From positions 1 to 45,458 of the forward strand of contig JAFGIU010000029.1 in the NCBI GenBank assembly GCA_016929445.1: DNA of 45,458 bases, in the 5' to 3' direction. Source of the stretch: Candidatus Omnitrophota bacterium. Its GTDB lineage: Bacteria; Omnitrophota; Gorgyraeia; JAFGIU01. The notes under the pieces are model-generated. The model searched no databases and was not told where the DNA came from. It worked only from the letters and a program-made list of their open reading frames with translations. The position numbers and the translations under genes are program-made. Positions 1,483 to 19,411 of the stretch are shown piece by piece (the stretch's first letter is position 1; every line of letters begins with the position of its first letter).

Positions 1483-1501
1483 AAAACAGGCGAGATGCCT
1501 G
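1483..1501 (-). terminator. Short intrinsic terminator after the membrane-protein gene
   Basis: On the minus strand CAGGC-ATCTC-GCCTG (1501 to 1487) is followed at once by TTTT (1486-1483). The 5-bp stem and short T-run lie just after the stop of the 1506-1817 gene. This would end the protease/kinase/receiver operon before the exonuclease gene. The T-run is short, so it may be leaky. Confidence 0.5.
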
Positions 1502-1505
1502 CGGA

Positions 1506-1817
1506 CTAGCGGCCGGCGAGCTTAGCTAAGTACGCAATCCCAAAGCGGATATGGGGCACCATTAGAGCATAGGCGCCGGCCAAGGCCAAAGCCATGGCGA
1601 AAATCGCCAAGACCTTGCCTTCCTCGTTGCGGATCAGGGTCCACAGCCCTAATGCACACGTCGCCAAACCAACCAGGCCCACGGCCGAACCATAGGAAGA
1701 AAAGAATTCAACCAAGGGCTGCGCCCCGGGCATATCCCCTGCCATCATCAAGAACTTCCACATGGCGCAGAGCGTGCCGCCGATAAACGCCAAGATAGAA
1801 CTCAGACTGAATCCCAA
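1506..1817 (-). CDS. Small membrane protein, three predicted TM helices, function unknown
   Basis: I do not recognise the family. The frame is open further upstream, but the best start is TTG at 1817, nine bases after a perfect AGGAGG; this gives 103 residues and avoids overlap with the receiver gene at 1840. Three hydrophobic stretches are visible: LGFSLSSILAFIGGTLCAMWKF at the N-terminus, YGSAVGLVGLATCALGLWTLI in the middle, and VLAIFAMALALAGAYALMV near the end, with a short charged RNEEGK loop between the last two. It is the last gene of the M48 protease-kinase-receiver operon and is followed by a terminator-like hairpin. The context suggests a link to that signalling unit, but no function can be assigned. 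Confidence 0.7.
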   Translation of the reverse strand: MGFSLSSILAFIGGTLCAMWKFLMMAGDMPGAQPLVEFFSSYGSAVGLVGLATCALGLWTLIRNEEGKVLAIFAMALALAGAYALMVPHIRFGIAYLAKLAGR

Positions 1818-1839
1818 GATTCGTTCCCTCCTAAAGGTA

Positions 1840-2220
1840 TCAGCTGGTGAATCGCTCGATACAACGCACCAAATCCTCGGTCCCAACCGGCTTTGCCAAA
1901 AAGGGATGTCCCCCAATCCTGCCATCCGGCCCGATTTCTTCCTTGATCACTGTTGCAGTCATAAACACAATGGGAATCCGGCCGATCTCCGAATCCTCCC
2001 GGATCTGAAAAGCCACTTCCGAGCCCTCCAAATCAGGCATCACGATATCCAAAAAGATGATATCCGGCTTAAACTCCTTGGCCGCTGCAAAGGCCTTGGA
2101 TCCAAAGGTCTCCACTTGCACCTCGTACCGTCCGGAGTCTTCAAGATTGAGCCGGATCATCTTGGCCAAGGATTCCTCATCGTCAACGATCAAGACCTTC
2201 TTCTTAACCATTTCCCCCAT
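1840..2220 (-). CDS. Stand-alone response regulator receiver domain
   Basis: A 126-residue CheY-like receiver with no output domain. The acidic pocket is Asp13-Asp14 (VDDEE), the phosphoacceptor is Asp58 in FLDIVMPD, the switch Thr is Thr88 in FMTAT, and the conserved Lys is Lys110 in FLAKPV, so it should be phosphorylatable. It lies 11 bp after the histidine kinase gene, its probable phosphodonor. The start could be the first ATG (2220) or the internal ATG three codons later, which has GGGGG just upstream. With no DNA-binding or enzymatic domain, output must come from protein contact or from phosphotransfer to another protein. Confidence 0.93.
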   Translation of the reverse strand: MGEMVKKKVLIVDDEESLAKMIRLNLEDSGRYEVQVETFGSKAFAAAKEFKPDIIFLDIVMPDLEGSEVAFQIREDSEIGRIPIVFMTATVIKEEIGPDGRIGGHPFLAKPVGTEDLVRCIERFTS

Positions 2221-2231
2221 ATCCCCCCCTG

Positions 2232-4304
2232 CTATGCGGCTTCAGGAATCTTCCCCACCGGAAAAAAAACAGTGGCAACAGCTCCCCCCTCAGGCGCATT
2301 CTCGATTTGGATTTTGCCGTGATGAATTTCTACAATGTTCTTGACGATTGACAGACCCAGCCCGGTCCCGCCCGAATCGAGCCGTGTTGTAAAGAAGGGT
2401 TCGAAAATCCGGTTGAGAACATGTTCCGGGATCCCGACTCCCGAGTCTTGGATCCTGACCAGGATCCTCGCTTCCGCATCCTTGGGACGCTCCCACCGGA
2501 CCTGAATCAGGAGCTTGCCCCCTTCGGGCATGGCCCGGACCGCATTGCCGAAGAGATTGATAAAGACCTGCTCGATACGATTGCGGTCCATCACCACCTC
2601 AGGCAGGTTTTCCTGAATCTCCGTAGTCACCTTAATGCCGTAACGGCTGAAATCGTGTTTAAGCAGTGTGAGGCAATTTTCGAGCACAGGAACCAGGTCC
2701 CCCGGAAGCATCGTGATGGTCGAGGCGCGCGCGAAATCCAACAGACCCAGAATGATCGAGTCCGCGCGCTTTACCGCCACAATCATGTCCTCGAGCATCG
2801 TCTCGATGCCTTCATTGTCGGGATCCGTGGATGTGCGTTCCCGCCGTATGTATTCGGCTCCCATCAGAAGAACAGACAAAGGGTGTTTGACCTCGTGGGC
2901 CAAACCCGCGGCCAACCGGCCGACAAGCTCCAATTTTTCCGCGTCCATTAACTGCAGCTGGGTGTTTTGGAGCTCTTCATTGGTCTGTCCCAAATCAGCC
3001 ATAGTCTGCAGAAGTTTTTTCTCGTTCTCCACGAGCTCCTCGTTCACGGATCTCAGGCGCTCCTCCGCTCTTTCCCGCTCATGCAACGCATCGAGCAATT
3101 CCTTCTGGTTGTCGCGAAGCTCCTCGTTTGCGCGCTTAAGACTCTTCTCCGCCCGCTTGCGCACAGTCATTTCATTCACTAAACCTTGATTGGCCATGGC
3201 CAGCTCAGCCATGCGTTCGGATACAAGCTTCTCGATCTGGCTTGCGCGGCGCATCCCCATAAAAAGATAGGCGCCCAACAGACCCGAAAGCATCAGCCCG
3301 CCCCAAAGAGCAATCCAGGGCTGCACGGACCGGCGCTGGTTTAAGAACTCAGCAGTCGGGGAGCAAGTCAAATACCACTTCCGCCCGCCCACTTTTAGAA
3401 CATTGCGAACCTCGAATTCCTGTGTCCCGGCGGGAATCAATCCCTTTCCCGGAGGAATGGCCAACTTCCCCCGGCCCAACTCAAAAAGCAGGGACTCTCC
3501 GGTCGTGTCTTCCATGCCGGAGAGCAAAACCTGAACACCCCTCAAATTAGTCTGCCCCAAAAGCTCCGTCACCAGATCATCCATCTCCACAAGCCCGATC
3601 ACATAGCCCCTTAGATTGTCCTCCTCCGATAACTCGGCAGCACTCCCGACGCCCCGGCGGACCGGCAAGAAAACCAATAGGCTGAAGGCTCCGGCATTTT
3701 TGATCCCCAGAGCCCGTTGTTCTACGGCAGCCGGAAGTCCCTTGCTTTGGGCCGCTTGCATAGCCAGAGCACAATCGGCATTGGATCCAATATCAAAACC
3801 GATCAACTCAGACGCCTCACGCAAGTCAGGCTCCAAAAAATAAACGGGGTAATAGACCTCCCGGGTCTGAGCGGCCCGGTAGCTGCCGTTCGAATCCTTC
3901 TCCTTGATCATGAATCCGCCCAGATTCTGACGGGCCGAGGTTTCAAAGGCGCTGCGCACAGATTCCTTCACCTGGGGAGCCCAGCCCATGGCGCGTATCT
4001 CGGGTTGGTCGAGCTTGATGCCGAAAACAAATTTTCCAAACTCACGGCTATCCACCGAACTCGTAGCAGCGGAAAAATTACTGGCCGAAAGCAGGGCCGT
4101 CAAGGATTCGTCGACACCCTGCTGGAGGCTCTGGACACAGGCGGCAGACAGGCGTTCAAACTCCAAATGCAATTTTTCGGTCTGCGAGTTTTGCACCCAA
4201 AAAAAAGCCCCCACCACAAGACCGATAGAGAGCAAGACAACGAGTGTCAACTGGAAATAGCGCAGATAGGCCAGAGTCTTATCCTGGGGCACCGGATAAT
4301 TCAT
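2232..4304 (-). CDS. CHASE-domain sensor histidine kinase
   Basis: A 690-residue inner-membrane sensor kinase. The order is: TM helix at about 16-38; extracytoplasmic sensor at about 45-325 with the CHASE-type stretch PEIRAMGWAPQV (101-112); second TM at about 330-350; a long charged coiled coil (about 355-458); dimerisation/phosphoacceptor helix with His470 (GLAHEVKHPLS); and a HATPase with N box (FINLFGNAVRAMPEGG, 581-596), G1 (DSGVGIPE, 620-627), F (FEPFFTT) and G2 (GGTGLGLS, 645-652). All catalytic motifs look intact. CHASE domains sense small molecules outside the cytoplasm; the ligand here is unknown. The ATG overlaps the protease stop as ATGA, with GGAG eight bases upstream. The receiver gene follows 11 bp later. 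Confidence 0.95.
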   Translation of the reverse strand: MNYPVPQDKTLAYLRYFQLTLVVLLSIGLVVGAFFWVQNSQTEKLHLEFERLSAACVQSLQQGVDESLTALLSASNFSAATSSVDSREFGKFVFGIKLDQPEIRAMGWAPQVKESVRSAFETSARQNLGGFMIKEKDSNGSYRAAQTREVYYPVYFLEPDLREASELIGFDIGSNADCALAMQAAQSKGLPAAVEQRALGIKNAGAFSLLVFLPVRRGVGSAAELSEEDNLRGYVIGLVEMDDLVTELLGQTNLRGVQVLLSGMEDTTGESLLFELGRGKLAIPPGKGLIPAGTQEFEVRNVLKVGGRKWYLTCSPTAEFLNQRRSVQPWIALWGGLMLSGLLGAYLFMGMRRASQIEKLVSERMAELAMANQGLVNEMTVRKRAEKSLKRANEELRDNQKELLDALHERERAEERLRSVNEELVENEKKLLQTMADLGQTNEELQNTQLQLMDAEKLELVGRLAAGLAHEVKHPLSVLLMGAEYIRRERTSTDPDNEGIETMLEDMIVAVKRADSIILGLLDFARASTITMLPGDLVPVLENCLTLLKHDFSRYGIKVTTEIQENLPEVVMDRNRIEQVFINLFGNAVRAMPEGGKLLIQVRWERPKDAEARILVRIQDSGVGIPEHVLNRIFEPFFTTRLDSGGTGLGLSIVKNIVEIHHGKIQIENAPEGGAVATVFFPVGKIPEAA

Positions 4305-5407
4305 GATAAGGACTCCGCATAGGCGCGCCCCATGGCCAGGCGTTTGGAAATGGCGGGGTGATCATAGAAGAACCATTCCACAAAAGGATGGGGGGTAGGA
4401 TCCGCCAAGTTCTGCAAGGCCAATTTCTCCATGCAGGAAATGAAATCCTCTGAGCGTCCTGTGAGACTGAGGGCAAATTGATCGGCCTGCCGCTCCAAAA
4501 CCCGCGAAAAACCGTTTTGCAAAGGCATCAAGACCAAACTGAGCCCGGTCAAAATCAAACAGATCAGGGGAAAGGCCGCCACACTGCTGACACTCTCAAC
4601 ACCGGCCACGGACAGCCAAAAGGGTTCGCTCAGATGGATCAAATAAAACCCCCCGAGCGCCGCAGCCGTAGAAAGCACCAGGTGTTGCGCAATATGCCGC
4701 AGTTTGTGATGCCCGAGTTCGTGCGCTAAAACGACTTCAATCTCCTCTGAGCTGAAGTTCTCCAGCAAGGTATCTCCCAAGACAACCCGTCTGGACCGAC
4801 CCACTCCCATGAGCGCCGCGTTTGCCTTGCGGGTCTTGGCCCCCATATCCATCTTAAAGGCATTGATCGCAGTCATACCCGTCTTCTCCACTAAATCCAT
4901 GAGGCGTTTCTTCAGGGACACGTCTTCCAGAGGCGTCAACTTATAGAAGAGTGGGAGGATCAGGACCGGAAAGACACGGGCCAGGAGAACGGTGATCAGC
5001 AACCATCCCACGGCAGCCAGGAACCACCAGCTCCGGGAAAAATAGTGCAGGAGAAAGTAAAGCCCTTGCACCATCGCCCCCACGAGCAGCAGGGATAACA
5101 GGCTGGACTTGAGCTCATCCTTGAACCAATCGCCCGGACTCTGATTCGAAAGATGATACTCATGCTCCAGCTTAAAGGAGCGATACCATCCCAAGGGCAA
5201 GGATACCACCCAGAAAGCCGATGCAAAGACAAGAAAGTAAAGGAAGACCTGGGACCAGAGAAAAAGAGTGTGGGCGTCTGCCCATTGAGCAAGGTCACGG
5301 GAGAATCCCGCGAACTGAAATACGGCCAGGAATACAAAACCGATTACAATTTCAATAAGAGAGAGGCGCAAGCGGATTCTGGCATAGTCCTTGGCTTTGT
5401 CATCCAT
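4301..5407 (-). CDS. M48-family membrane metalloprotease (Ste24/CAAX endopeptidase type)
   Basis: A polytopic zinc protease of 368 residues from ATG 5407. An in-frame TTG at 5434 would add nine residues but overlaps the putative -10 box. The zinc site is HELGH at about residues 229-233 (VLAHELGHHKLRH), with a probable third ligand Glu in RVLERQADQFAL about 75 residues later. The layout of N-terminal helices, loop, HExxH flanked by hydrophobic segments and a C-terminal ERQAD motif matches Ste24-type (M48A) proteases rather than the shorter HtpX. In bacteria such enzymes are thought to act in membrane protein quality control, since prenylated CAAX substrates are not expected. Its stop overlaps the kinase start, so protease and kinase are co-translated. 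Confidence 0.9.
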   Translation of the reverse strand: MDDKAKDYARIRLRLSLIEIVIGFVFLAVFQFAGFSRDLAQWADAHTLFLWSQVFLYFLVFASAFWVVSLPLGWYRSFKLEHEYHLSNQSPGDWFKDELKSSLLSLLLVGAMVQGLYFLLHYFSRSWWFLAAVGWLLITVLLARVFPVLILPLFYKLTPLEDVSLKKRLMDLVEKTGMTAINAFKMDMGAKTRKANAALMGVGRSRRVVLGDTLLENFSSEEIEVVLAHELGHHKLRHIAQHLVLSTAAALGGFYLIHLSEPFWLSVAGVESVSSVAAFPLICLILTGLSLVLMPLQNGFSRVLERQADQFALSLTGRSEDFISCMEKLALQNLADPTPHPFVEWFFYDHPAISKRLAMGRAYAESLS

Positions 5408-5414
5408 ATTTCTT

Positions 5415-5420
5415 ATTATA
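5415..5420 (-). promoter_or_regulatory. Candidate -10 box (TATAAT) for the protease-kinase operon
   Basis: A perfect TATAAT reads on the minus strand eight bases before the ATG at 5407. No good -35 is seen at 16-18 bp. Transcription would start at about 5408, giving a nearly leaderless mRNA, in line with the lack of a Shine-Dalgarno before that ATG. The divergent tolC-like gene starts at 5459, so the 51-bp gap must serve both directions. Confidence 0.4.
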
Positions 5421-5458
5421 TGGGTCTGAAGCAAAATAGGCTACAAACCGATAGAGTG

Positions 5459-6970
5459 ATGAATCGATCCAACACCCGTCCTTCGAATATCTTCTTGATT
5501 GCTCTCCTGAGTCTTGCTTTGGGCAGCGTATCCACTGTCTGCGCCCAGGAACCGGAAGTCCATTCTTTCGCAAAGGCTGGGCTTAGTCTTGATGAGGCCT
5601 TCCGCCTGGCCTTGGCCCACAATTTTCAGGTCCGTGTCGCCCTTCTCGATCAGCAGGACGCCCGGCAAAACCTCATGCAGGCCCGCTCGCGCTATGACAC
5701 CACCCTCAATCTCGGCGTGGACTACAGCATGGATAAGAGGGAGCAATCCAGCGTCATCATGGGCACCAAAAGCACCGCAGGACACCTGAGGATGGGCTTG
5801 TCCAAGGATCTGCCCACCGGCACTACCTTGGGGCTGGATTGGGTCAACACCCGCAGCACCAGCAGCTCCGGTTTTGTGGCTAACCCCGAACTCTATGACG
5901 AACAGCTCAGGCTCTCCGCGCATCAGGACCTGCTGCAGAATTTTGCCGGTATTGTTGACCGGGGGACGGTCCGGCTCACTGAGCTCTCTGTGGATCAGAT
6001 TGATCTAGACACCCTCAACCGGATCGAAAGCACACTCGCCGAGGTCTCCGACCAATACTATGCGTGGGCTGAGGCAGGGCTGGCTGTTGAAATCCAGGAA
6101 ATGGCGCTTCAAAAAGCCGAGGAACTCCTGGAGATCTTCCTTCTCAAGAAGGACCGCGGCGTTGTTGAGGACCGGGATCTGCTCGCCTCCCGGGCCAATG
6201 TGGAGGCCCGGCGCGCAGACCTGCTGCTGACGCGCGCAAAGCTTGAGACTCTGGCAGAGGGCCTGGCCTTTTTGCTGCAAGTCCCCTCTCTGAAGGATTC
6301 TGTCCCTACCGAGGGACTGAACCCGGGAGAAATCGAAATCTCTGCCGGGGAAGCTCTGAAGCGCGCGCTAAAACAAAGACGGGACCTCCGGCAGGCTGAA
6401 CTGGACTTGGAAAAGGAAACTCTCGGCGCGCGCATTGCCCGCAGCGAGCTCCTCCCTCAACTGGATCTTTATGGCGCGGTGTCCGGGAATCGTCTGGATG
6501 AACACTTTGAGAGCGGCCGCAGCCCTCTTTTTACAGACGAACACCCGACTTATGAGGTAGGCATCACAGGCACTTTGCCTTTGGAAAACCGCAGGGAACG
6601 GGCCGCGTTCAAACAAGCCCGGCTGCGCAGGGAAAAAGCTGAACTCGCCTTGGAAGAGCTGCAAAAGAATATTGTTGTGGAGATCGCGGATGCTGTGCGT
6701 CAAGTCGAGACCGCAAAGACAAATTCGAGTCTGCGCGAAAAAATCGCCGACCTTCAAGCCCAAAAACTTAAGGCCGAAGAAAACCAGTTCGAATTAGGAC
6801 GCAGCCGCAGCAAGGACGTAATCGATTTTCAGCAGGATCTCTATACTTCGCAACTCCTGCACAACGCCTCTCTGCTGGCCTACCGCCGGGCGCTAACCAA
6901 GTTACAGCTTACCCAAAACCAACTCCTCGTATATTTTGAGGATGAGATCAAGAAAGAATTCACCCATTGA
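5459..6970 (+). CDS. TolC-family outer membrane efflux protein
   Basis: The 503-residue protein begins with a signal peptide (MNRSNTRPSNIFLIALLSLALGSVSTVCAQ). The open frame extends upstream to 5153, but that part is antisense to the protease gene, so ATG 5459 is preferred. The mature part has the two-fold repeated helical layout of outer membrane efflux proteins: LSLDEAFRLALAHNFQVRVA at the start of repeat one, SAGEALKRALKQRRDLRQAELDLE opening repeat two, and long heptad-rich helices (KAELALEELQKNIVVEIADAVRQVE). It would form the trimeric outer membrane duct. Its stop overlaps the RND gene start, so the two are translationally coupled. No periplasmic adaptor gene is nearby. Confidence 0.92.
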   Translation: MNRSNTRPSNIFLIALLSLALGSVSTVCAQEPEVHSFAKAGLSLDEAFRLALAHNFQVRVALLDQQDARQNLMQARSRYDTTLNLGVDYSMDKREQSSVIMGTKSTAGHLRMGLSKDLPTGTTLGLDWVNTRSTSSSGFVANPELYDEQLRLSAHQDLLQNFAGIVDRGTVRLTELSVDQIDLDTLNRIESTLAEVSDQYYAWAEAGLAVEIQEMALQKAEELLEIFLLKKDRGVVEDRDLLASRANVEARRADLLLTRAKLETLAEGLAFLLQVPSLKDSVPTEGLNPGEIEISAGEALKRALKQRRDLRQAELDLEKETLGARIARSELLPQLDLYGAVSGNRLDEHFESGRSPLFTDEHPTYEVGITGTLPLENRRERAAFKQARLRREKAELALEELQKNIVVEIADAVRQVETAKTNSSLREKIADLQAQKLKAEENQFELGRSRSKDVIDFQQDLYTSQLLHNASLLAYRRALTKLQLTQNQLLVYFEDEIKKEFTH

Positions 6971-9900
6971 ATCCAGCAGAATTTTCCGTAAAGAACAGTC
7001 TCTTCGTTAACCTTTTTGCTGTGTTCCTCATGGTCGCCGGGCTGGCCGCCACCTTTGCCATGAACCGGGAGGCTTTCCCCAACTTCTCCTTTGATATCGT
7101 GGTTGTGCAAACTCTCTATCCTGGCGCGCCTCCGGAGCAGGTAGAAAAGCTGGTCACCATACCCATTGAAAAAGAAATCCGGTCCCTCGACTACATTGAT
7201 GAAATCAACTCAGTCTCCACGGAAAACATCTCTGTCATTACCGTCACGATTGATCCGGATGCCCCGAATGTGGACGACGTTGTAACCAAGATCCAGCAAG
7301 AGGTCAACTCCATCCGGGATCTGCCCGCAGACGTGGAAGACCCTCTGGTCCAGGAAATCACGGCCGGAAATACCCCTGTAATCGAGGTCAATTTGGGCGG
7401 GTGGGTTGAGGAATCCCTGCTCCAGCGCTATGCCTTGATTCTGGAAGACCGCTTGTTGGAACTCCCGGGTATTTCGGCAGTGAGCCGCCGCGGATGGCGC
7501 AACCGCGAGATCCAGATCGAGGTAGACCCCGAACGGATGCTGGGGTCCCATATTGCCCTGGATGAAATCGTCAATGCCCTGGCGCAGCACAATGTCAACG
7601 TGCCAGCCGGAGAGGCTCTTTTAAACGGACGGGAAGTTCTGATCCGCACGGACGGAGAGTTCTTTACGGCAGAAGAGGTGGAACAGGTGATTGTCCGCTC
7701 CAGTGATGTCGGCAACTGGGTCAAGGTCGGCGATGTCGCGACTGTGTACGACACCTTTGAAGACACCGACGTGCTCCTGCGCGCCAAGGGCAAACCCACC
7801 ATCAGTCTTGTGGTCATCAAAAAAGAGGCCGGCGATACCATTGAGATTGTGGATCTTATCAACAAGAAACTGGATCAATTCCGCACGGAACTGCCCGAAG
7901 AGATCGAAATCAGCATTGCCAACGACATCAGCTTCTACGTTAAGCGCCGTCTCAAAGTGTTGCTCAACAACGGTTGGATCGGGCTAAGCCTGGTTTTGAT
8001 CGTGCTCTTTCTCTTCCTGGGGCGCACGGTGGCCCTGATGACTGCGCTGGGCTTGCCGCTGGCTATGATGACGGCCTTGCTGCTCATGTATTTATTCGGA
8101 GCCACGATCAATCTGATTACGATGTTTGCCATGATCATGGTCCTGGGCCTGGTGGTGGATGACGCCATCATTGTGTCTGAAAACGTCCACCGTCATCTTG
8201 AGATGGGGAAGTCTCCCAAGCAGGCTGCAATTGACGGCACGGCCGAAGTTGCCAAGCCGGTCGTGGCCACTGTGCTTACTTCGGTTTCCGCCTTTATACC
8301 GCTGCTGTTCATGAGCGGAATCTTCGGCAAATTCATCTGGTGGATGCCGGTGGTGGTCACCATCGTGTTGACGGCTTCCTTATTGGAATGCCTCTTTGTG
8401 CTTCCTACCCATCTGGCAGACTTTGTGCACCCGCAGACCAACCACAAGCACCGCTCTGAGTCCCGGTGGTTCCAGACGATCCAAGACACCTATGTCTACA
8501 TCCTGCAATCGGCCCTGCGCCTGCGCTACTTGCTTTGGGGCCTGTTCTTCACCCTTCTCGTCGGTGCCTTTCTCCTGGCAAAATCCGTGGTCCCATTTGT
8601 GCTCTTTCCTCACGAGGGAATCGAGGCCTTTATTATCCGCGGCGAAACCCCTGTGGGAACGCCTCTTCAAGCGACCTCGGAATATATGAAACCCATTGAG
8701 GCGATTTTGGACCGATTACCCAAAGAGGATCTGGACACCTATCTGACTCAAATCGGCATACAACAGCAGGAAGCCGACGATCCCGGCACTCAGCGCGGAA
8801 CGCATCTCGGCCAGGTGATGGTTTACCTGACACCGGCCCAGGGAAGAAAGCGCACAGCCGATGACGTCATCGAAGAGCTTCGGGAAAAGGTCAAAGACCT
8901 GCCCGGATGGGAACGGCTGTATTTCGAAAGGATCAATCCGGGTCCTCCCACAGGGAAACCGGTGGCTGTGCGCATTCAGGGTGATCATTTCGAGACATTG
9001 GAAAGAATTGCCCGGGAGTACGAAGCGCGTCTCAAACAGATGCCCGGAGTCGCGGATGTGCGCATTGACTTTGAACGCGGAAAGCTCCAGCGACGTGTTG
9101 CGGTCGACCGGGAATCCGCCTCCATTTCAGGGCTGACCACAGCAGATATTGCCCGAACCGTGCGCACCGCCTACGAAGGCGCCACTGCCACGGAGATCAA
9201 GCCGCTGCGTGCGGAAGAAGCGGTGGACGTCATCGTGCGCCTGCCTGAAAAGGACCGCAATGATCCCGCTACCTTTGACAAACTCCTCATACGCAACCGC
9301 AATGACTTACTGGTGCCGCTGAATAAGGTCGCGAGTTGGACCGAAGAACCCGGGCTTTCCTTTATCAAGCGCCGGGACGGCAAACGCGTGATCACTGTAA
9401 GCGCGGACGTGGACGGAAAGACAGCCACTTCAGTGAGAATCAACACGGCCCTGGCCAAGGAATTCAGCGATGTGGAGCAGCGCTACCTGGGCTATACCGT
9501 GACCTATGGCGGGGAACAGGAGGACACAAATGAGTCCTTGGATAGCCTGTTCCGGGCCTTCGGCCTCGCCGCGCTGCTGATCTTCTTTTTGCTGGCCACA
9601 AATTTCCAATCCTTGCACCAACCGCTCATTGTCATGCTCACCATCCCCTTTGCCATTGTGGGAGTGATCCTCACCTTCTTTATCCACGGCAAACCCTTGA
9701 GCTTTTTGGCGATCCTAGGGCTTATCGGGCTTTGCGGGGTTGTGGTCAACGACTCCATCATTCTGGTCAATTTCATAAACCAGCTCCGTCTCGAAGGCCA
9801 TCAGCGCCGGGAATCCATTATCAGTGCGGGAAAACTCCGTTTGAGGCAGGTGCTCCTGACCACGATCACCACCTGTTTCGGGCTCTTTCCCGTGGCCTAT

Positions 9901-10083
9901 GGCTGGGGAGGCTCGGATCCCTTTCTCAAGCCTATGGCCCTGGCCATTTCCTGGGGACTGGCCTTTTCCACGGTCCTTACGCTGATCCTGGTGCCCGCCA
10001 CCTATGCCATGGTGGATGACGCTGCCGCCTGGGTGCGACGGGTAACCCACCGGCCTCCCGGGCCACTAAACGGACACCATTAG
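6967..10083 (+). CDS. RND-family efflux transporter (AcrB/HAE1-like inner membrane pump)
   Basis: A 1038-residue resistance-nodulation-division permease. TM1 (SLFVNLFAVFLMVAGLAATFAM) is followed by the porter domain opening YPGAPPEQVEKLVTIPIEKEI, then TM2-6 including the proton-relay helix GLVVDDAIIVSENVHRH with the expected Asp-Asp pair. The second half repeats the plan: a second large periplasmic loop, then ILGLIGLCGVVVNDSIILVNFINQL. That helix lacks the Lys found at AcrB position 940 and has Asn-Asp instead, as in many non-proteobacterial RND pumps. Substrate cannot be inferred. The start is TTG at 6967, overlapping the tolC stop as TTGA. An inverted-repeat element begins within the stop codon. 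Confidence 0.93.
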   Translation: MNPAEFSVKNSLFVNLFAVFLMVAGLAATFAMNREAFPNFSFDIVVVQTLYPGAPPEQVEKLVTIPIEKEIRSLDYIDEINSVSTENISVITVTIDPDAPNVDDVVTKIQQEVNSIRDLPADVEDPLVQEITAGNTPVIEVNLGGWVEESLLQRYALILEDRLLELPGISAVSRRGWRNREIQIEVDPERMLGSHIALDEIVNALAQHNVNVPAGEALLNGREVLIRTDGEFFTAEEVEQVIVRSSDVGNWVKVGDVATVYDTFEDTDVLLRAKGKPTISLVVIKKEAGDTIEIVDLINKKLDQFRTELPEEIEISIANDISFYVKRRLKVLLNNGWIGLSLVLIVLFLFLGRTVALMTALGLPLAMMTALLLMYLFGATINLITMFAMIMVLGLVVDDAIIVSENVHRHLEMGKSPKQAAIDGTAEVAKPVVATVLTSVSAFIPLLFMSGIFGKFIWWMPVVVTIVLTASLLECLFVLPTHLADFVHPQTNHKHRSESRWFQTIQDTYVYILQSALRLRYLLWGLFFTLLVGAFLLAKSVVPFVLFPHEGIEAFIIRGETPVGTPLQATSEYMKPIEAILDRLPKEDLDTYLTQIGIQQQEADDPGTQRGTHLGQVMVYLTPAQGRKRTADDVIEELREKVKDLPGWERLYFERINPGPPTGKPVAVRIQGDHFETLERIAREYEARLKQMPGVADVRIDFERGKLQRRVAVDRESASISGLTTADIARTVRTAYEGATATEIKPLRAEEAVDVIVRLPEKDRNDPATFDKLLIRNRNDLLVPLNKVASWTEEPGLSFIKRRDGKRVITVSADVDGKTATSVRINTALAKEFSDVEQRYLGYTVTYGGEQEDTNESLDSLFRAFGLAALLIFFLLATNFQSLHQPLIVMLTIPFAIVGVILTFFIHGKPLSFLAILGLIGLCGVVVNDSIILVNFINQLRLEGHQRRESIISAGKLRLRQVLLTTITTCFGLFPVAYGWGGSDPFLKPMALAISWGLAFSTVLTLILVPATYAMVDDAAAWVRRVTHRPPGPLNGHH

Positions 10084-12534: not shown

Positions 12535-13359
12535 TTAAGAGACTTTAACGCCCATCAGCACAATCCCGGCAGAATCTGCAAGTCGAATAAACCCGGCCCC
12601 GCCGATGAAAAGGGTGCGACCGGTTTCAACGGCCAGGACTGAAGCCTGCGCTTCTTGAAGGGTGCGAAGAGTCGATTCGCCCACCACCGGCACATCGAAG
12701 CGCATGTCTTGCTTGGGTTTGGCAACCTTGACCACCACAGCTCCCGGTCCTCCCAGCTGTCCGCCTCGCCGGATTGCGGCATCCGTACCCTCAATAGCCT
12801 CTACCGCCAAAACCGCCTTGGACCGAACCACGATAGTCTGGCCGATATCTGCGCCGGCAATGACCTTGGCCTGCTGCAGCCCAAACTGAACATCTTCCCG
12901 CTGGGAGTCTGATGGCTGGGCTTGGGTGAGGACCCCTTCGCCTGCGAGGGAATCCTCCAGAAAGAGAGTGGAATTGAGGACCCGGACTCCCTGACTCTCC
13001 AGCATCCGGGCAAAGGTCCCCAACAAAGAATCGGCACGCAGATCCTTAACCTGGTTCAAGGCCTGCGTCAATAAGGAATCCGGGTTCAATCCCTTGGCCA
13101 AAAGCCTTTGAGGCCGCACCTGTCCGGCCATCACCACCTCAACAAGCGCTTCCCGTTTGAGGATCTCGAAAAGCTTGCCCAACTCCCCTACCTGAACCCA
13201 GTGGATGCGGTCCACAATCTGCTCAAGAGCGGGCTCCGTTTCTTCCCGCAGGCCAATGGCAATCACTTCTCTTTCGTGTTTCTTGGCCTCGGCAGCCCAT
13301 ATCAACGGAAAGTGCCCGTTGCCCGCAATGAGTCCGACCTTCTGATGCGTCTCTGCCAT
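12535..13359 (-). CDS. lpxI: UDP-2,3-diacylglucosamine pyrophosphatase, LpxI type
   Basis: A 274-residue protein of the LpxI (DUF1009) family, which hydrolyses UDP-2,3-diacylglucosamine to lipid X and UMP and replaces LpxH in many lineages. Typical features are the N-terminal KVGLIAGNGHFPLIWAAEAK, the middle GQVRPQRLL, and the C-terminal catalytic half with ADIGQTIVVRSKAVLAVEAIEGTDAAIRRGG and KQDMRFDVPVVGESTL. The start has AGGA seven bases upstream, and the gene lies nine bases after lpxA. Its place beside lpxD, lpxC-fabZ and lpxA fits the fourth lipid A step. lpxB and lpxK are not in the window. Confidence 0.94.
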   Translation of the reverse strand: MAETHQKVGLIAGNGHFPLIWAAEAKKHEREVIAIGLREETEPALEQIVDRIHWVQVGELGKLFEILKREALVEVVMAGQVRPQRLLAKGLNPDSLLTQALNQVKDLRADSLLGTFARMLESQGVRVLNSTLFLEDSLAGEGVLTQAQPSDSQREDVQFGLQQAKVIAGADIGQTIVVRSKAVLAVEAIEGTDAAIRRGGQLGGPGAVVVKVAKPKQDMRFDVPVVGESTLRTLQEAQASVLAVETGRTLFIGGAGFIRLADSAGIVLMGVKVS

Positions 13360-13368
13360 ACTGTCTTC

Positions 13369-14169
13369 CTATTCCGGAGTGCCCCGGGCAGGACGCCCGA
13401 TACCGCGTTTGGAGGCGCGGGCAAAGGCAACCAGATTCCTGATTTCTTCAGTGCCGGGGTAAGCCTTTTCAATCGCATCAAGCCGCTCTACGCGAGAACC
13501 GCCGGCAATATCGAAAAGCATGTGAAAGGCCTTGCGCAGCTCGGATCGAACCTCCGCACTCACCCCGCGCCGTTTCAGGCCCTCAATATTCATTCCGCGG
13601 AAACGGGCCGGATGCCCGTCATAAATCGCATAGGGAAGCCCGTCGGAAGCGAGCTTGGACCCGCCTCCCAAAATAGTCCGGGTCCCCACTGTGACAAACT
13701 GGTGCACTGCAGAAAGCCCGCCCAACATGACCTGGTCCGCCACCTCCACATGCCCCCCCAGGGTCGCGGCATTGGCAAAAACACACTCGTTTCCGACAAC
13801 ACAGTCGTGCGCAACATGCACATAAGCCATCAATAAATTATCAGAACCAATCTTCGTCTGCCCGGTCGCGGCCGTTCCACGGTGGATGGTGACATATTCA
13901 CGAATCCGGTTGTTGTTACCGATGATGACCTTCGCAGGTTCGTTCTTATACTTGAGGTCCTGGGAAGCCAATCCAATACTGGCCCCTTGGTAAATCTCGC
14001 AATTGGCGCCGATACTTGTATCCCCGTCGATTACGCAGCTTTGGGCCACGGTCGTGCCGCCCCCGATTTTGACTTTGGCGCCAATGCAAGAAAAAGGGCC
14101 GATGACAACATCATCGGCCAAAACGGCTTCCGGATGGACAATCGCTGTAGGATGGATGGAAACAGTCAT
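13369..14169 (-). CDS. lpxA: Acyl-ACP--UDP-N-acetylglucosamine O-acyltransferase
   Basis: A 266-residue left-handed beta-helix acyltransferase catalysing the first step of lipid A synthesis, 3-O-acylation of UDP-GlcNAc. Hexapeptide repeats fill residues 5-180 (IHPTAIVHPEAVLADDVVIGPFS...), with the catalytic-type His in LLMAYVHVAHDCVVG. The C-terminal helical domain follows GLPYAIYDGHPARFRGMNIEGLKRRGVS, a standard LpxA feature. Length matches the family (about 260). The tail RGIGRPARGTPE is slightly longer than usual. It lies 29 bp after lpxC-fabZ, without a strong ribosome binding site, so it may depend on upstream translation. Confidence 0.96.
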   Translation of the reverse strand: MTVSIHPTAIVHPEAVLADDVVIGPFSCIGAKVKIGGGTTVAQSCVIDGDTSIGANCEIYQGASIGLASQDLKYKNEPAKVIIGNNNRIREYVTIHRGTAATGQTKIGSDNLLMAYVHVAHDCVVGNECVFANAATLGGHVEVADQVMLGGLSAVHQFVTVGTRTILGGGSKLASDGLPYAIYDGHPARFRGMNIEGLKRRGVSAEVRSELRKAFHMLFDIAGGSRVERLDAIEKAYPGTEEIRNLVAFARASKRGIGRPARGTPE

Positions 14170-14198
14170 ATTAGTGTCAGAAAGACCGGAAGAAGGGA

Positions 14199-15533
14199 CT
14201 AGCCATCCACCAGACTAAACATCAGCTCCGCTTCGGCAACGACCTTTCCGTCCACCAGGGCCTTGCCATAAACCAGTCCCGTCCTCGGGCGGATCTTGAG
14301 CACGTCCACCTCCAAGAAAAGCTGATCTCCCGGAACCACGGTCCTTCTGAACTTGCCCTTGGAAACACTCGCAAAGTAAGCAAACTTTTTAGAGTTTTCC
14401 GCGCTATTGAGCAAAAGCACCCCGGCAACCTGAGCCAGTGCTTCGATGATCATGACGCCCGGCATAACCGGACGCCCGGGGAAATGGCCTGCAAAGAAAT
14501 TGTCGTTGATGGTAACGTTCTTGATTCCAACCGCCCGCTTGAGCGGATCGATTTCCGTGATTCTATCTACCAACAAAAAAGGATAGCGGTGCGGCAGAAT
14601 TCGCTTGATCACGTTGATGTCCATGGCCGTGGCGCCCGGCTGCGCCTTACCCGGATACAAAGCAGCATCGCGCGAACGCTTGTGTGCCGAGGCTACTTTC
14701 TGAATAAACTGGATATTGAGCGGATGACCGCTACGGATGGCCACAATATGGCCCACTAGATTGAAGCCCAGCAGGGAAAGGTCGCCCAAAAGATCCAAGA
14801 CCTTGTGACGGGCAAATTCATTTTCAAATCGAAGATTGTTGTCGATAACCCCGTCGTTCCCGAGCACAAGAGTGTTCTCATAAGTTGCGCCCTTGCCCAA
14901 ACCAAGCTTACGCAGCTCATCGGCTTCTCGCTGCAAGCAAAACGTGCGGCTCGGGGCAATATCACTTTCAAAAACACCGTTACTCAGGCCAAAAGAAGCG
15001 TACTGTGCATGCAACAGCGGGTGGTCATAACTCAGCATATACGAAACCCGCAGCTCCGAGCTCGGGAGTACGGCCAAGAAGCACCTGCGTGCCGAGTCCT
15101 CCACCCAAATCGGTTCCCGCGCATAAAAAGTGGTGGCCGGCGCAGTCTGGGGATTGATTCCCGCATCGCGAAGGGCCTGGACAAAGGGCACGGCACTCCC
15201 GTCCATCCCCGGCAATTCCTCTGCGTTGATTTCTACAAAAACATTGTGAATATTGAGCCCCCACAAGCTGGCCATGAGATGCTCAATCGTGTGGATCTCC
15301 ACGCCATTGATCCCCACCGAGGTCCGGCGAGGTGACTGGGAGAGATCAACCAAATTTTCAACCAAGGCAGGGATGACGGGCCGGTTAGGCAAATCCGTAC
15401 GCACAAATTGCACACCGGTTCGGGGAGGCGCCGGCTTCAGGGTCAAAGTGACCTCTTGCCCCGTATGCAGTCCTACACCTTTAATGCTAACCGGCTTATT
15501 GATCGTCTGCTGGTGAGTGACTCTTGTGTTCAA
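14199..15533 (-). CDS. lpxC-fabZ: Fused LpxC deacetylase / FabZ 3-hydroxyacyl-ACP dehydratase
   Basis: A two-domain protein of 444 residues. Residues about 1-290 are LpxC, the zinc-dependent committed step of lipid A synthesis: [15 protein letters not shown] at the start, zinc ligands in HTIEHLMAS and in the [16 protein letters not shown] block, and a late His in HKRSRD. Residues about 300-444 are Fab[15 protein letters not shown], the catalytic His in [24 protein letters not shown], then a hotdog-fold tail. The fusion is known in Bacteroidota and some other diderms. The preferred start is TTG 15533, preceded by AGAAGG eight bases upstream. It overlaps the end of lpxD by 38 nt. The open frame continues upstream to 15665, but that part is antisense-like or out of frame with lpxD coding. 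Confidence 0.95.
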
Positions 15534-16548
15534 GATCGTCGACCTTCTTCTGAAGTTCTTCCAGGTCCCGGGCCAAACGGGGCAAACGTTGGACCATGGC
15601 ATTAATTCGCTTGGCCTGCGCATGTGGTTTGGCCGGATACCCGGAAACAAATTGGTTGGCTTCAATGGATTTTGTTACGCCTGCTTGCGCGGCGATTACA
15701 ACATTATCCCCTATGGTAATGTGTCCCACGATTCCTGATTGCCCGGCAATCGTAACATTCTTACCAATTGTCGTGCTTCCCGAAATACCGGACTGGGAAA
15801 CGATAATAGAATTCTCTCCGATGGTCACATTGTGAGCGATCTGCACAAGATTATCAATCTTGGTCCCCTTGCCGATGAAGGTGACTCCGAAACGCGCACG
15901 GTCAATCGTCACATTGGCCCCGACTTCCACATCATCTTCAATAACCACAGTTCCAATCTGCGGAATTTTGTGGTGTACACCCTTAACTGTTGCGAAACCA
16001 AAACCATCGCTCCCGACAACGGACCCGCTATGGATAATGACGCGATTCCCTATCGAAACACGCTCACGGATTATCACATGCGGATAGACCAATACATCTT
16101 CACCCAACTGCGTGTGGTGCCCTAGGTACACCCCTGTGTAGAGCACACTCCGGTCCCCGATCTCGACATTGTCTTCCACAACCACATAAGCCTGGATAGC
16201 CACATCCTTGCCCAGCTTGACGTTCTTTCCGATCACAGCTGTAGGGTGGATCCCCTGGGGGTGATGCACTTCATTGGGAGCAATCAAACTCACCATCTTG
16301 GCGAATGCCAGAGAAGGATTGTCCGTGCGGATGATCGGCATCGTCGCGGACTCCACCTCCCGCGAAACGATTATCGCAGATGCTTTCGTGTGTTTCATAA
16401 GGGGCCAGTAGCGGGAGTTTGCCACAAAAGTGAGATCTCCCTCTTGGGCCTCCTTAATGCCGCAGATACCGGTAATGACAACCGAGGAATCACCGATTAC
16501 TTCGCCCTCGACGATCTCTGCGACTTCTCTCAAAGTCTTACTTATCAT
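15496..16548 (-). CDS. lpxD: UDP-3-O-acylglucosamine N-acyltransferase
   Basis: A 350-residue enzyme adding the second (N-linked) acyl chain in lipid A synthesis. The N-terminal LpxD domain ([43 protein letters not shown]) is followed by a long left-handed beta-helix of hexapeptide repeats ([25 protein letters not shown]...). The conserved catalytic region lies near [22 protein letters not shown]. The C-terminal helix is charged and coiled ([18 protein letters not shown]). The best start is ATG 16548 (MISKTL), with AAGGA seven bases upstream, rather than the longer frame to 16629. It overlaps the skp stop by 11 nt and lpxC-fabZ by 38 nt, so all three are tightly coupled. Confidence 0.95.
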
Positions 16549-17050
16549 TCTTGTATCCTTCATTGAGAATCTGAAGAACGGGGTCGGTAATATCGTTTGC
16601 CTCTTCGCCAAACAGCAGAACCCGCTCATTGAAAATGAATGCGAATTCCTCTTTCTTAGCGTAGTCGATTACAGCTGCATTGATTTCTTCGAGAATTTCG
16701 CGAACCATCGTGTCGTGCTGTTCACGAAGATCCTGGCGACTCTGATTATCAAATTCCTTCAAAGCCAATAGTCCATTTTCAATTTCCTGCTCTTTGCCTC
16801 GCCGAGCATCCGGAGAAAGAAGCTCGAGCTCGCTTCGCATATCCCGGATCATCTCCACCTGGCCCACTCGCTCATCCGCCTTCTTCTTTGAAAGGGCCTC
16901 CAGAGTCGCCTCCTGGTCCTTAGTCTTTTGGTAATTCTCAAAGGCTCTGCCCACATTCATATAGCCGATCTTGGCCATCGCATAGCCCGGAGAAGCCAAC
17001 CCCAATCCAACCACAAATACCACCAAAGCTGCCAGCCATCTCTGCCGCAT
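16538..17050 (-). CDS. skp: OmpH/Skp-family periplasmic chaperone
   Basis: A 170-residue secreted protein. It has a signal peptide ([24 protein letters not shown]), then [19 protein letters not shown], the usual start of OmpH/Skp proteins, followed by a long charged coiled coil (about 45-125) and a short beta-rich return ([28 protein letters not shown]). Skp trimers hold unfolded outer membrane proteins in the periplasm for delivery to BamA. The position directly after bamA and before lpxD is the classic arrangement. GGGAGG lies six bases before the ATG. Confidence 0.92.
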
Positions 17051-17080
17051 GTTGTTTCCTCCCTAAAGACTTCCCTAGTA

Positions 17081-19411
17081 TTAGAAAAACCCTCTGGACA
17101 TTGAGAAGTGGAACCTTCCGCTGTCATCCTGATTATCGTCCGGATTCAACGGATAACCGTAGTCGAGCTTAACCGGCCCGATAGGGGTCTTGATACGCAC
17201 ACCCAGGCCAGCCGAATACTGATAACCCCCGCTTCCGATCTGATCTGCTTTTTGCCAAACATTACCGGCATCGGTAAAAACCGCCCCCTTCAGATTCTCC
17301 ACCAGCGGGAATGTCATTTCTATACTTCCAAATACAACGGACTCCCCCCCGAGTACATCGCCGGAAACATCCCGGGGGCCGATATCCCGCTCTTGAAAGC
17401 CGCGAACCGTATTGGCCCCACCCAGGAAGAACCGCTCGTAAATCGGGACTGTTTCCGTATTCGAGAAGGCCTGTGTCACTCCGGCACGACCCCGGAATTG
17501 AAAAGTAAACAGATCAAAGAATGTCTTGTAGACCATTCCCGTAGCCTGATACCGGGTAAAATCCTTATCAAACCCAAGAGGGCCGCCTGCCAATCCGGCA
17601 GACCCAAAAAGCATCAGGCCATCTGTTGGATTGAACCGGCTGTCCCGGGTATCCCAAGTCAAACCGACTTCCGCAGCACTGACCCGGTTTTGCCCCTCTT
17701 CGTCCTTAAAGTCTTGTGAAGCGCCGGCAGGAATATCCGAAATCTGAATCTGCTCCAAACGGTAAAGTGTCGAAGCATTCAGGTATTCCCCGATTTCCCG
17801 GCTCAAACGAATATCGCCGCCGCGCCGTTCCTCATCGTAAGCAAAACCTGAAGTGCCGCTTCGAAGCTGAGTCCGGTTATAGAGATCGAATCCGGCTGCA
17901 AGCGGTCGATCCATCAACCAAGGCTCGGTGAAGTTGATCTCAAAATCACTTCGGGTACTGCCCAGTTCCAAACGAAACCGTAAATCCTGCCCCGCTCCGG
18001 TAAAGTTCCCCCAATTCGATATGTCGAAATTCTTCTGGGCAATTTCAGCAAAGCCCACAAAGGCATCGACTGAGCTGAAGCCGGCGCCAAAACTCACCTC
18101 GCCGGTCTTTGTCTCGCGGACTTCTACCTCTAAATCCCGATACTTCGGGTCGTCAGTGGCTGTGGTATCGAAACGGACTTCTTCAAAGAACCCAAGGTTA
18201 TCGAGACGCTGTTTGCTGCGCTCAAGCTTCTTTCCATCAAACCGCTCGCCAGGATTGACACGCAACTCACGCCTAATGACCTTGTCCTTGGTCTTGGTAT
18301 TGCCGTGAATGTTGATTTTGTGAACATAGCTCAATTCCCCTTCCATAACCTGAAAAACAATGTCCACCTGGCCGGTGTCTTCGTTCAGCAGGGTATCCGG
18401 CAGGACCCGCGCAGCGATATATCCCTTTTCGAAAAAGAATCCCTTGATACGGTTGACCTGAACCCGCAAAGAGTCTTCGCTGTAATAGTCTCCCTGCTTT
18501 GCCGCCAGCGTCTCTCTCAATTCTGTTTCAGGAAAGACCTCGTTGCCTGTAATACTCAATTTCCCGTACTGATACCGCCGGCCCTCGATGATATTGATCT
18601 TCGTTACGATCCACTTTCCGGTCGGATCCGGTTCAGAAACAGACTCGGCCTCGGCATCGGCAAATCCCTCAGACCGGTAGAAAGCCTCGATCCTCAGCAG
18701 GTCTTCCTCAAGGGTTTCCTGCTTCAGCACCCCTGAACGGAACCAAGCAGCCTTCCTCGTCTTGATGATTTTCAAAATCTTCTTGTCGGGAAACGTATGG
18801 TTACCGGCGATTTCAATCGCCTTGACCCGCAACCTGACACCTTCGTCGACTAAAACATAAACTGTTGCCTCGTTCGTCGGAGCATTGACCTGATAGTCGT
18901 AAGAAATACTGACATCCGCGTAGCCCTTCTCTATATAATGCTGCTTAATCTGTGCAACATCTTCCTTAAGCTGCTTCAAATTCAAAAATTCGCCGGCCAC
19001 AGAGAGCATCAATTTCTGCAGGCGGGCTGATCGAATCCGCCGGTTACCCTCAAATTGGACTTCCTTCAATACGGGCTTTTCGACAACAAGGAAGGTCACA
19101 TAGACGCCGTCGGTTTCTTCCTTGACGTCAATGCTCACGTCGGTGAAAAAACCCATCGCGTAGATTCGCTTAAGGTCTTCATTCAGAACAGTCTCTGAGA
19201 AGGGAATTCCGCGGCGTGTTTTAACGCGCGCCAGGATCGTATCTGAACTCGTCGCTCTTTGCCCGGAGACAATCACTTCCCGCACGACCGGACCCCCGGA
19301 AGAGTCTCCCGCAGTTTGAGAAAGAGCTTCCGGAATCAGACTGCCAATTGCCAGAAGATAAGCCCCCAGAATAAGTAAACGATAATTCTTCACAAGGATG
19401 GACCTTAGCAT
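17081..19411 (-). CDS. bamA: Outer membrane protein assembly factor BamA
   Basis: A 776-residue Omp85 protein that inserts beta-barrel proteins into the outer membrane. After a signal sequence (to about residue 32, ending PEALSQ) come five POTRA repeats at about 42-425 (for example VREVIVSGQRATSSDTILARVKTRRG, then LKEVQFEGNRRIRSARLQ and VHKINIHGNTKTKDKVIRREL). The barrel includes the NTVRGFQERDIGPRD block, equivalent to the VRGF loop, and ends in Phe (SMSRGFF), the C-terminal insertion signal. The ATG at 19411 has a poor ribosome binding site. An in-frame GTG at 19393 has AAGGT eight bases upstream and gives a more typical signal peptide (MKNYRLLILGAYLL), so it may be the true start. Confidence 0.96.
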   Translation of the reverse strand: MLRSILVKNYRLLILGAYLLAIGSLIPEALSQTAGDSSGGPVVREVIVSGQRATSSDTILARVKTRRGIPFSETVLNEDLKRIYAMGFFTDVSIDVKEETDGVYVTFLVVEKPVLKEVQFEGNRRIRSARLQKLMLSVAGEFLNLKQLKEDVAQIKQHYIEKGYADVSISYDYQVNAPTNEATVYVLVDEGVRLRVKAIEIAGNHTFPDKKILKIIKTRKAAWFRSGVLKQETLEEDLLRIEAFYRSEGFADAEAESVSEPDPTGKWIVTKINIIEGRRYQYGKLSITGNEVFPETELRETLAAKQGDYYSEDSLRVQVNRIKGFFFEKGYIAARVLPDTLLNEDTGQVDIVFQVMEGELSYVHKINIHGNTKTKDKVIRRELRVNPGERFDGKKLERSKQRLDNLGFFEEVRFDTTATDDPKYRDLEVEVRETKTGEVSFGAGFSSVDAFVGFAEIAQKNFDISNWGNFTGAGQDLRFRLELGSTRSDFEINFTEPWLMDRPLAAGFDLYNRTQLRSGTSGFAYDEERRGGDIRLSREIGEYLNASTLYRLEQIQISDIPAGASQDFKDEEGQNRVSAAEVGLTWDTRDSRFNPTDGLMLFGSAGLAGGPLGFDKDFTRYQATGMVYKTFFDLFTFQFRGRAGVTQAFSNTETVPIYERFFLGGANTVRGFQERDIGPRDVSGDVLGGESVVFGSIEMTFPLVENLKGAVFTDAGNVWQKADQIGSGGYQYSAGLGVRIKTPIGPVKLDYGYPLNPDDNQDDSGRFHFSMSRGFF

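Follow-up and report, generated by a model that had tools for sequence, protein, structure and literature searches.

The closest described counterparts of the gene pair reported here are kinase-receiver pairs of the DivK, CheY and EpsW type, in which the receiver has no output domain. For EpsW of Myxococcus, the reported mode of action is binding to an enzyme (accessible portion of PMC12802240). A second line of comparison concerns proteases: in Sinorhizobium meliloti an M48 protease, JspA, is placed upstream of a two-component kinase, since it lowers ExoR, the restrainer of ExoS-ChvI (accessible portion of PMC10659215). Other M48 peptidases, Ste24 and ZMPSTE24, are related in sequence to the protease treated below. 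Our searches returned no literature joining a CHASE domain, a single-domain response regulator and a histidine kinase.

The window, that is, the whole 45,458-nt stretch of DNA analysed here, is a complete contig (C29) of a 137-contig, 2.43 Mb assembly (97% complete) of a Candidatus Omnitrophota bacterium. On its minus strand lie a Ste24-like protease, a CHASE sensor kinase, a stand-alone receiver and a small membrane protein (Table 1). These four gene types had been named in a preliminary description, and their identities, strand and positions agree with the sequence and with Pfam. Like the DivK/CheY/EpsW-type pairs, the window pair has an intact receiver without an output domain and a kinase gene directly upstream of it; unlike them, its kinase has a CHASE sensor and a histidine at H+4. 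We consider it likely that the kinase and receiver form a recurring cassette which sits here in a lineage-specific neighbourhood, and that the phosphorylated receiver acts by binding another protein.

Table 1. Positions of the genes and features discussed, in the window and at the places compared with it
Feature	Position	Strand	Size and basis
M48 family Ste24-like membrane metalloprotease	4301..5407	-	368 aa; Pfam, Ste24p alignment, hydropathy
CHASE sensor histidine kinase	2232..4304	-	690 aa; Pfam, 18-relative alignment, H+4 tally
Stand-alone DivK-like receiver	1840..2220	-	126 aa; Pfam Response_reg, family alignment, best solved relative
Three-helix membrane protein, family none found	1506..1817	-	103 aa; TTG start, AGGAGGG upstream
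Weak hairpin behind small gene	1485..1503	-	CAGGC/GCCTG stem, TTTT; read from sequence
AddB-like next gene, cut by contig edge	1..1473	-	Exonuc_V_gamma 4.6e-04, AddB 2.4e-06, both under cut-off
TolC-type outer-membrane factor, divergent	5459..6970	+	OEP 1e-28 (Pfam)
RND pump behind TolC-type gene	6967-10083		ACR_tran 6.1e-204 (Pfam)
G126 T2SSE-PilZ ATPase, CHASE-PAS kinase, receiver	L266 599-5191		gene lengths around resemble G086
G086 T2SSE-PilZ ATPase, CHASE-PAS kinase, receiver	L267 6489-11350		T2SSF and T2SSK downstream; ATP synthase genes beside
Own-genome receiver/T2SSE places	C92:9714-11752, C127:22121-24260, C50:1153-3129		C50: 677-aa frame

The kinase possesses CHASE (6.5e-29, residues 83-274), HisKA (7e-09) and HATPase_c (3e-27) domains by Pfam, and two hydrophobic stretches place the CHASE domain between two membrane helices. 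Of 384 genomes, its own counted, 49 contain relatives of this sensor half (E 1e-6 or better), mostly at 22-33% identity. The phosphoacceptor is His470 and the ATP-binding motifs are intact; H470, E471, N587, D620, G622, G624, G646, G648 and G650 are invariant in 19 of 19 aligned kinases. The H-box reads HEVKHPL, so that H+4 is occupied by His474 rather than by the usual Thr, Asn or Glu, a feature which does not define membership of the family. This position governs the phosphatase activity of HisKA kinases, Thr or Asn being usual and Glu nearly as conserved (accessible portion of PMC8292422). All 18 aligned relatives have Asn there, and a tally over 48 distinct kinases gave N 36, T 7, E 2, Q 1, A 1 and H 1, this single histidine belonging to the window kinase itself; the loci for this tally were not chosen by H-box pattern, and kinases with an H-box outside the search expression were dropped. 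The histidine is predicted to alter the phosphatase activity of the kinase. Since its codon, CAC, is one base removed from the Asn codon AAC, residue 474 may also reflect an assembly error or a strain variant.

The receiver was identified through Response_reg (2.2e-19), its best solved relative being DivK (1.8e-15). It contains no further domain, and D13, D14, D58, T88 and K110 are invariant in all 19 aligned sequences; a further ATG, in frame at 2211, agrees equally well with the N-terminus typical of the family. Matches at E 1e-20 or better occur in 111 of 237 genomes (own counted), mostly in frames of approximately 110-180 aa, and of the 32 receiver matches in its own genome, 18 fall within frames no longer than 173 aa. 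A receiver without an output domain is ordinary in this genome. At one place (C106:15889-17043, L106) a single kinase is followed by three consecutive receivers, all from the same subfamily.

From the best 29 receiver places outside the source genome (down to 4.8e-35 in G023) 26 loci were taken (L109-L134), two places on G018 and one on G181 being left out. In 20 of the 26 the receiver gene is immediately preceded by a related kinase gene of the same strand (phmmer 6.6e-39 to 9.3e-75; read by eye), the genes overlapping or being separated by gaps of up to 94 bp. The six loci without such a kinase directly upstream are L114, L115, L126 and L127, together with L121 and L129, which are cut by a contig end. 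The source genome holds three more tandems (C4, which is also CHASE-like, C40 and C106). CHASE-like sensors are present in 3 of 23 tandem kinases (L104, L110, L117), and the CHASE part of the window kinase finds no match in the rest. We aligned 19 tandems: the window pair, 15 of the 20 from other genomes and the three from its own. Over the other 18, identity to the window pair is 38-47% for the kinase cores and 44-58% for the receivers, with invariant catalytic residues. Kinase and receiver distances correlate at r 0.25, a value reached by 412 of 10000 permutations, which lends weak support to possible co-evolution of the two proteins. In named genomes a strong receiver (E < 1e-20) lies directly behind the kinase at 5 of 80 loci among the matches listed, from a kinase scan biased by its use of H-box and F-box patterns; three of these are from Verrucomicrobia (L144-L146), one from Desulfobacteraceae (L149) and one from Omnitrophota (L151). 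The kinase-receiver pair is a recurring cassette with varied sensors and exchanged neighbours, and the earlier observation of an output-less receiver encoded together with a kinase is thereby confirmed, by Pfam and by the tandem counts, as a recurring unit.

Based upon these domains, the CHASE domain would sense something outside the inner membrane, the signal would lead to phosphorylation of His470, and the phosphoryl group would presumably be transferred to Asp58 of the receiver. The phosphorylated receiver would then bind another protein, binding being the expected mode of action because there is no output domain. The receiver would be translated right behind the kinase, and the protease gene precedes the cassette. 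We counted against this explanation the ATGA overlap described below, the modest correlation, the six of 26 loci without an upstream kinase, and the fact that our analysis turned up no target for the receiver. An alternative fate for the phosphoryl group is transfer from the receiver to the stand-alone HPt protein of the genome, or the receiver might restrain its own kinase in the manner of FixT or Osp. One HPt match above the cut-off does exist in the source genome (a 120-aa frame on C127), and single-domain receivers which inhibit kinases have been described (accessible portion of PMC12471899), but the HPt gene adjoins a different receiver (C127:11007-11345) and the window receiver retains its full phosphorylation site. 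Either route we regard as quite unlikely.

For the binding partner of a stand-alone receiver of this family, two relatives offer a candidate. In G126 and G086, both from the same phylum as the source, a CHASE-PAS kinase and a receiver are found directly behind a T2SSE-PilZ ATPase, and by distance the window receiver is closest to that of G126. The two clusters resemble the window in having a CHASE kinase and, right behind it, a receiver from the same subfamily; they differ from it in that the upstream gene specifies the ATPase, not a protease, and in that the kinases carry PAS. The window receiver might, on this analogy, bind a T2SSE-type ATPase encoded elsewhere in the genome and act on a secretion or pilus motor. 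The source genome itself has stand-alone receivers directly before T2SSE genes (C92, C127) and a receiver and T2SSE in one frame (C50), but none of these three receivers belongs to the window receiver's close subfamily, all being absent from its 7 own-genome matches. Moreover, no T2SSE gene was seen near the window pair, and such a target for its receiver is in our opinion unlikely. Because T2SSE adjacency is restricted to 2 of the 26 receiver-anchored loci, the arrangement in G126 and G086 illustrates one use to which the cassette is put and does not reveal what it does in general. The family of output-less kinase-receiver pairs extends over several phyla, and the two members beside a secretion-type ATPase provide a target which can be tested.

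The tight packing of the four genes had led to the proposal of a single signalling module. The stop codon of the protease and the start codon of the kinase share an ATGA (4301-4304), 11 bp separate the kinase stop (2232) from the receiver ATG (2220), and 22 bp separate the receiver stop (1840) from the TTG of the small gene (1817), which is preceded by AGGAGGG; the overlap and short gaps of the preliminary description are thus those of the sequence. The ATGA overlap suggests translational coupling of protease and kinase, which chance neighbours need not have, and the protease probably shares the transcript of the kinase and receiver.

The protease carries Peptidase_M48_N (5.2e-27) and Peptidase_M48 (7.7e-25) domains and five hydrophobic stretches. 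It aligns with Ste24p (4il3; E 2e-31) over residues 52-358, including both zinc motifs, the HEXXH motif being HELGH and the downstream glutamate lying in ERQAD. It shares with Ste24 and ZMPSTE24 the membrane part of the M48_N type, the HEXXH motif and the glutamate ligand, but has 368 residues versus 461 in the Ste24p chain. To our knowledge bacteria would not be expected to contain CAAX substrates. Of the 384 phylum genomes sampled, its own counted, 267 have a relative at E 1e-10 or better.

Neighbourhoods of the protease were collected at 49 loci of other genomes (nine, L135-L143, and 40, L224-L263; median flanks about 3.4 and 3.6 kb). They contain no match to the window kinase and none to the small protein, and a single weak receiver match (7.7e-08) at L237 lies 2.5 kb away from the protease. 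No kinase or receiver was seen adjoining the protease in loci with 1.5 kb flanks, nor, reading by eye among the matches listed, a CHASE-like sensor and the protease on one contig. The 98 immediate neighbours are most often TPR proteins (12), beta-CASP/RMMBL metallo-hydrolases (10), Peptidase_MA_2 (10) and LpxB (8); HisKA, HATPase_c and Response_reg are absent from the 25 commonest neighbour families listed, the smallest of which has 4 members and beyond which lie 107 rarer families. Conversely, neither M48 nor the small protein was found at the 80 named-genome kinase loci among the matches listed. At one of the 49 protease loci (L139) a small membrane gene does follow the protease, encoding 102 aa with two hydrophobic stretches; its sequence does not match that of the window protein.

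Three hydrophobic stretches are present in the small protein, and a single-sequence model gave three helices with low confidence (mean pLDDT 68.4). A fold search in the PDB produced no match better than E 1.6, and no Pfam family was assigned, DUF6114 being weak and under the cut-off (E 0.38). Matches at E 0.1 or better were obtained in 28 of 383 other genomes of the phylum, all between 0.004 and 0.1 and with partial coverage. The 30 rows beyond the window are mostly larger or interrupted frames, few being small (for example a 100-aa frame in G386, E 0.006); their E values are 0.004 or worse and their coverage is partial, and we treated them collectively as presumed chance matches. No convincing homolog was found in the 383 genomes, and the protein is most likely lineage-specific.

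These results bear directly on the idea that the CHASE kinase, a regulator of it or the small protein is a substrate of the Ste24-type protease, with the receiver reporting membrane damage. The short gaps and ATGA overlap speak for such a scheme, and JspA provides a precedent for an M48 protease that feeds into a two-component kinase. JspA differs, however, in being a lipoprotein with a LysM domain and not Ste24-like, its coupling runs through ExoR, and the response regulator ChvI controls genes (accessible portion of PMC10659215). With no kinase at the 49 protease loci, no M48 at the 80 named-genome kinase loci among the matches listed, and no convincing relative of the small protein in the 383 other genomes, we hold proteolytic signalling of this kind to be very unlikely. 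The protease is probably a separate, widespread gene whose product would process membrane proteins.

The preliminary description had named a lack of co-occurrence in relatives as a refutation of its proposal; in the genomes compared the four genes do not co-occur, and the module of protease, kinase, receiver and small protein was not upheld at the level of class or phylum. The nearest comparison genomes share only the class with the source, none belonging to its family or order, so a recent lineage-specific operon of four genes could still exist. A version in which the protease and small protein were recruited to the pair, the kinase losing its phosphatase through the histidine at H+4 and the system being reset by proteolysis of a membrane partner, strikes us as extremely improbable. 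A functional module cannot be claimed from closely overlapping genes in a single metagenome-type assembly, and we retain as the likely reading a kinase-receiver cassette preceded by a separate protease gene.

At the other end of the cluster the small gene had been said to finish in a terminator-like hairpin. A hairpin is present and the region folds well (1440-1520 better than 200 of 200 shuffles, z -3.57), the hairpin sitting inside a longer structure; its role as a terminator found no such backing, for the stem is 5-6 bp with four T only and a terminator scan of the window did not report 1485-1503. The AddB-like gene starts at 1473 or 1458, 33-48 bp past the small gene, and, lying on the same strand, is possibly co-transcribed with the cluster, so that the operon may extend past the small gene. 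A promoter scan of the window found 2 promoters versus 1.9 expected.

Upstream of the cluster (5400-5470) the starts of the protease and TolC-type genes are divergent and about 50 bp apart, with overlapping -10-like boxes, TATAAT and TATTAT; use of the minus-strand box would make the protease mRNA nearly leaderless, and the scan lists the plus-strand box only. No TolC or RND match occurs in the 49 protease loci of relatives. Further along, positions 12535-19411 hold an outer-membrane biogenesis cluster comprising LpxI, an LpxA-like protein, an LpxC-FabZ fusion and a BamA-like protein.
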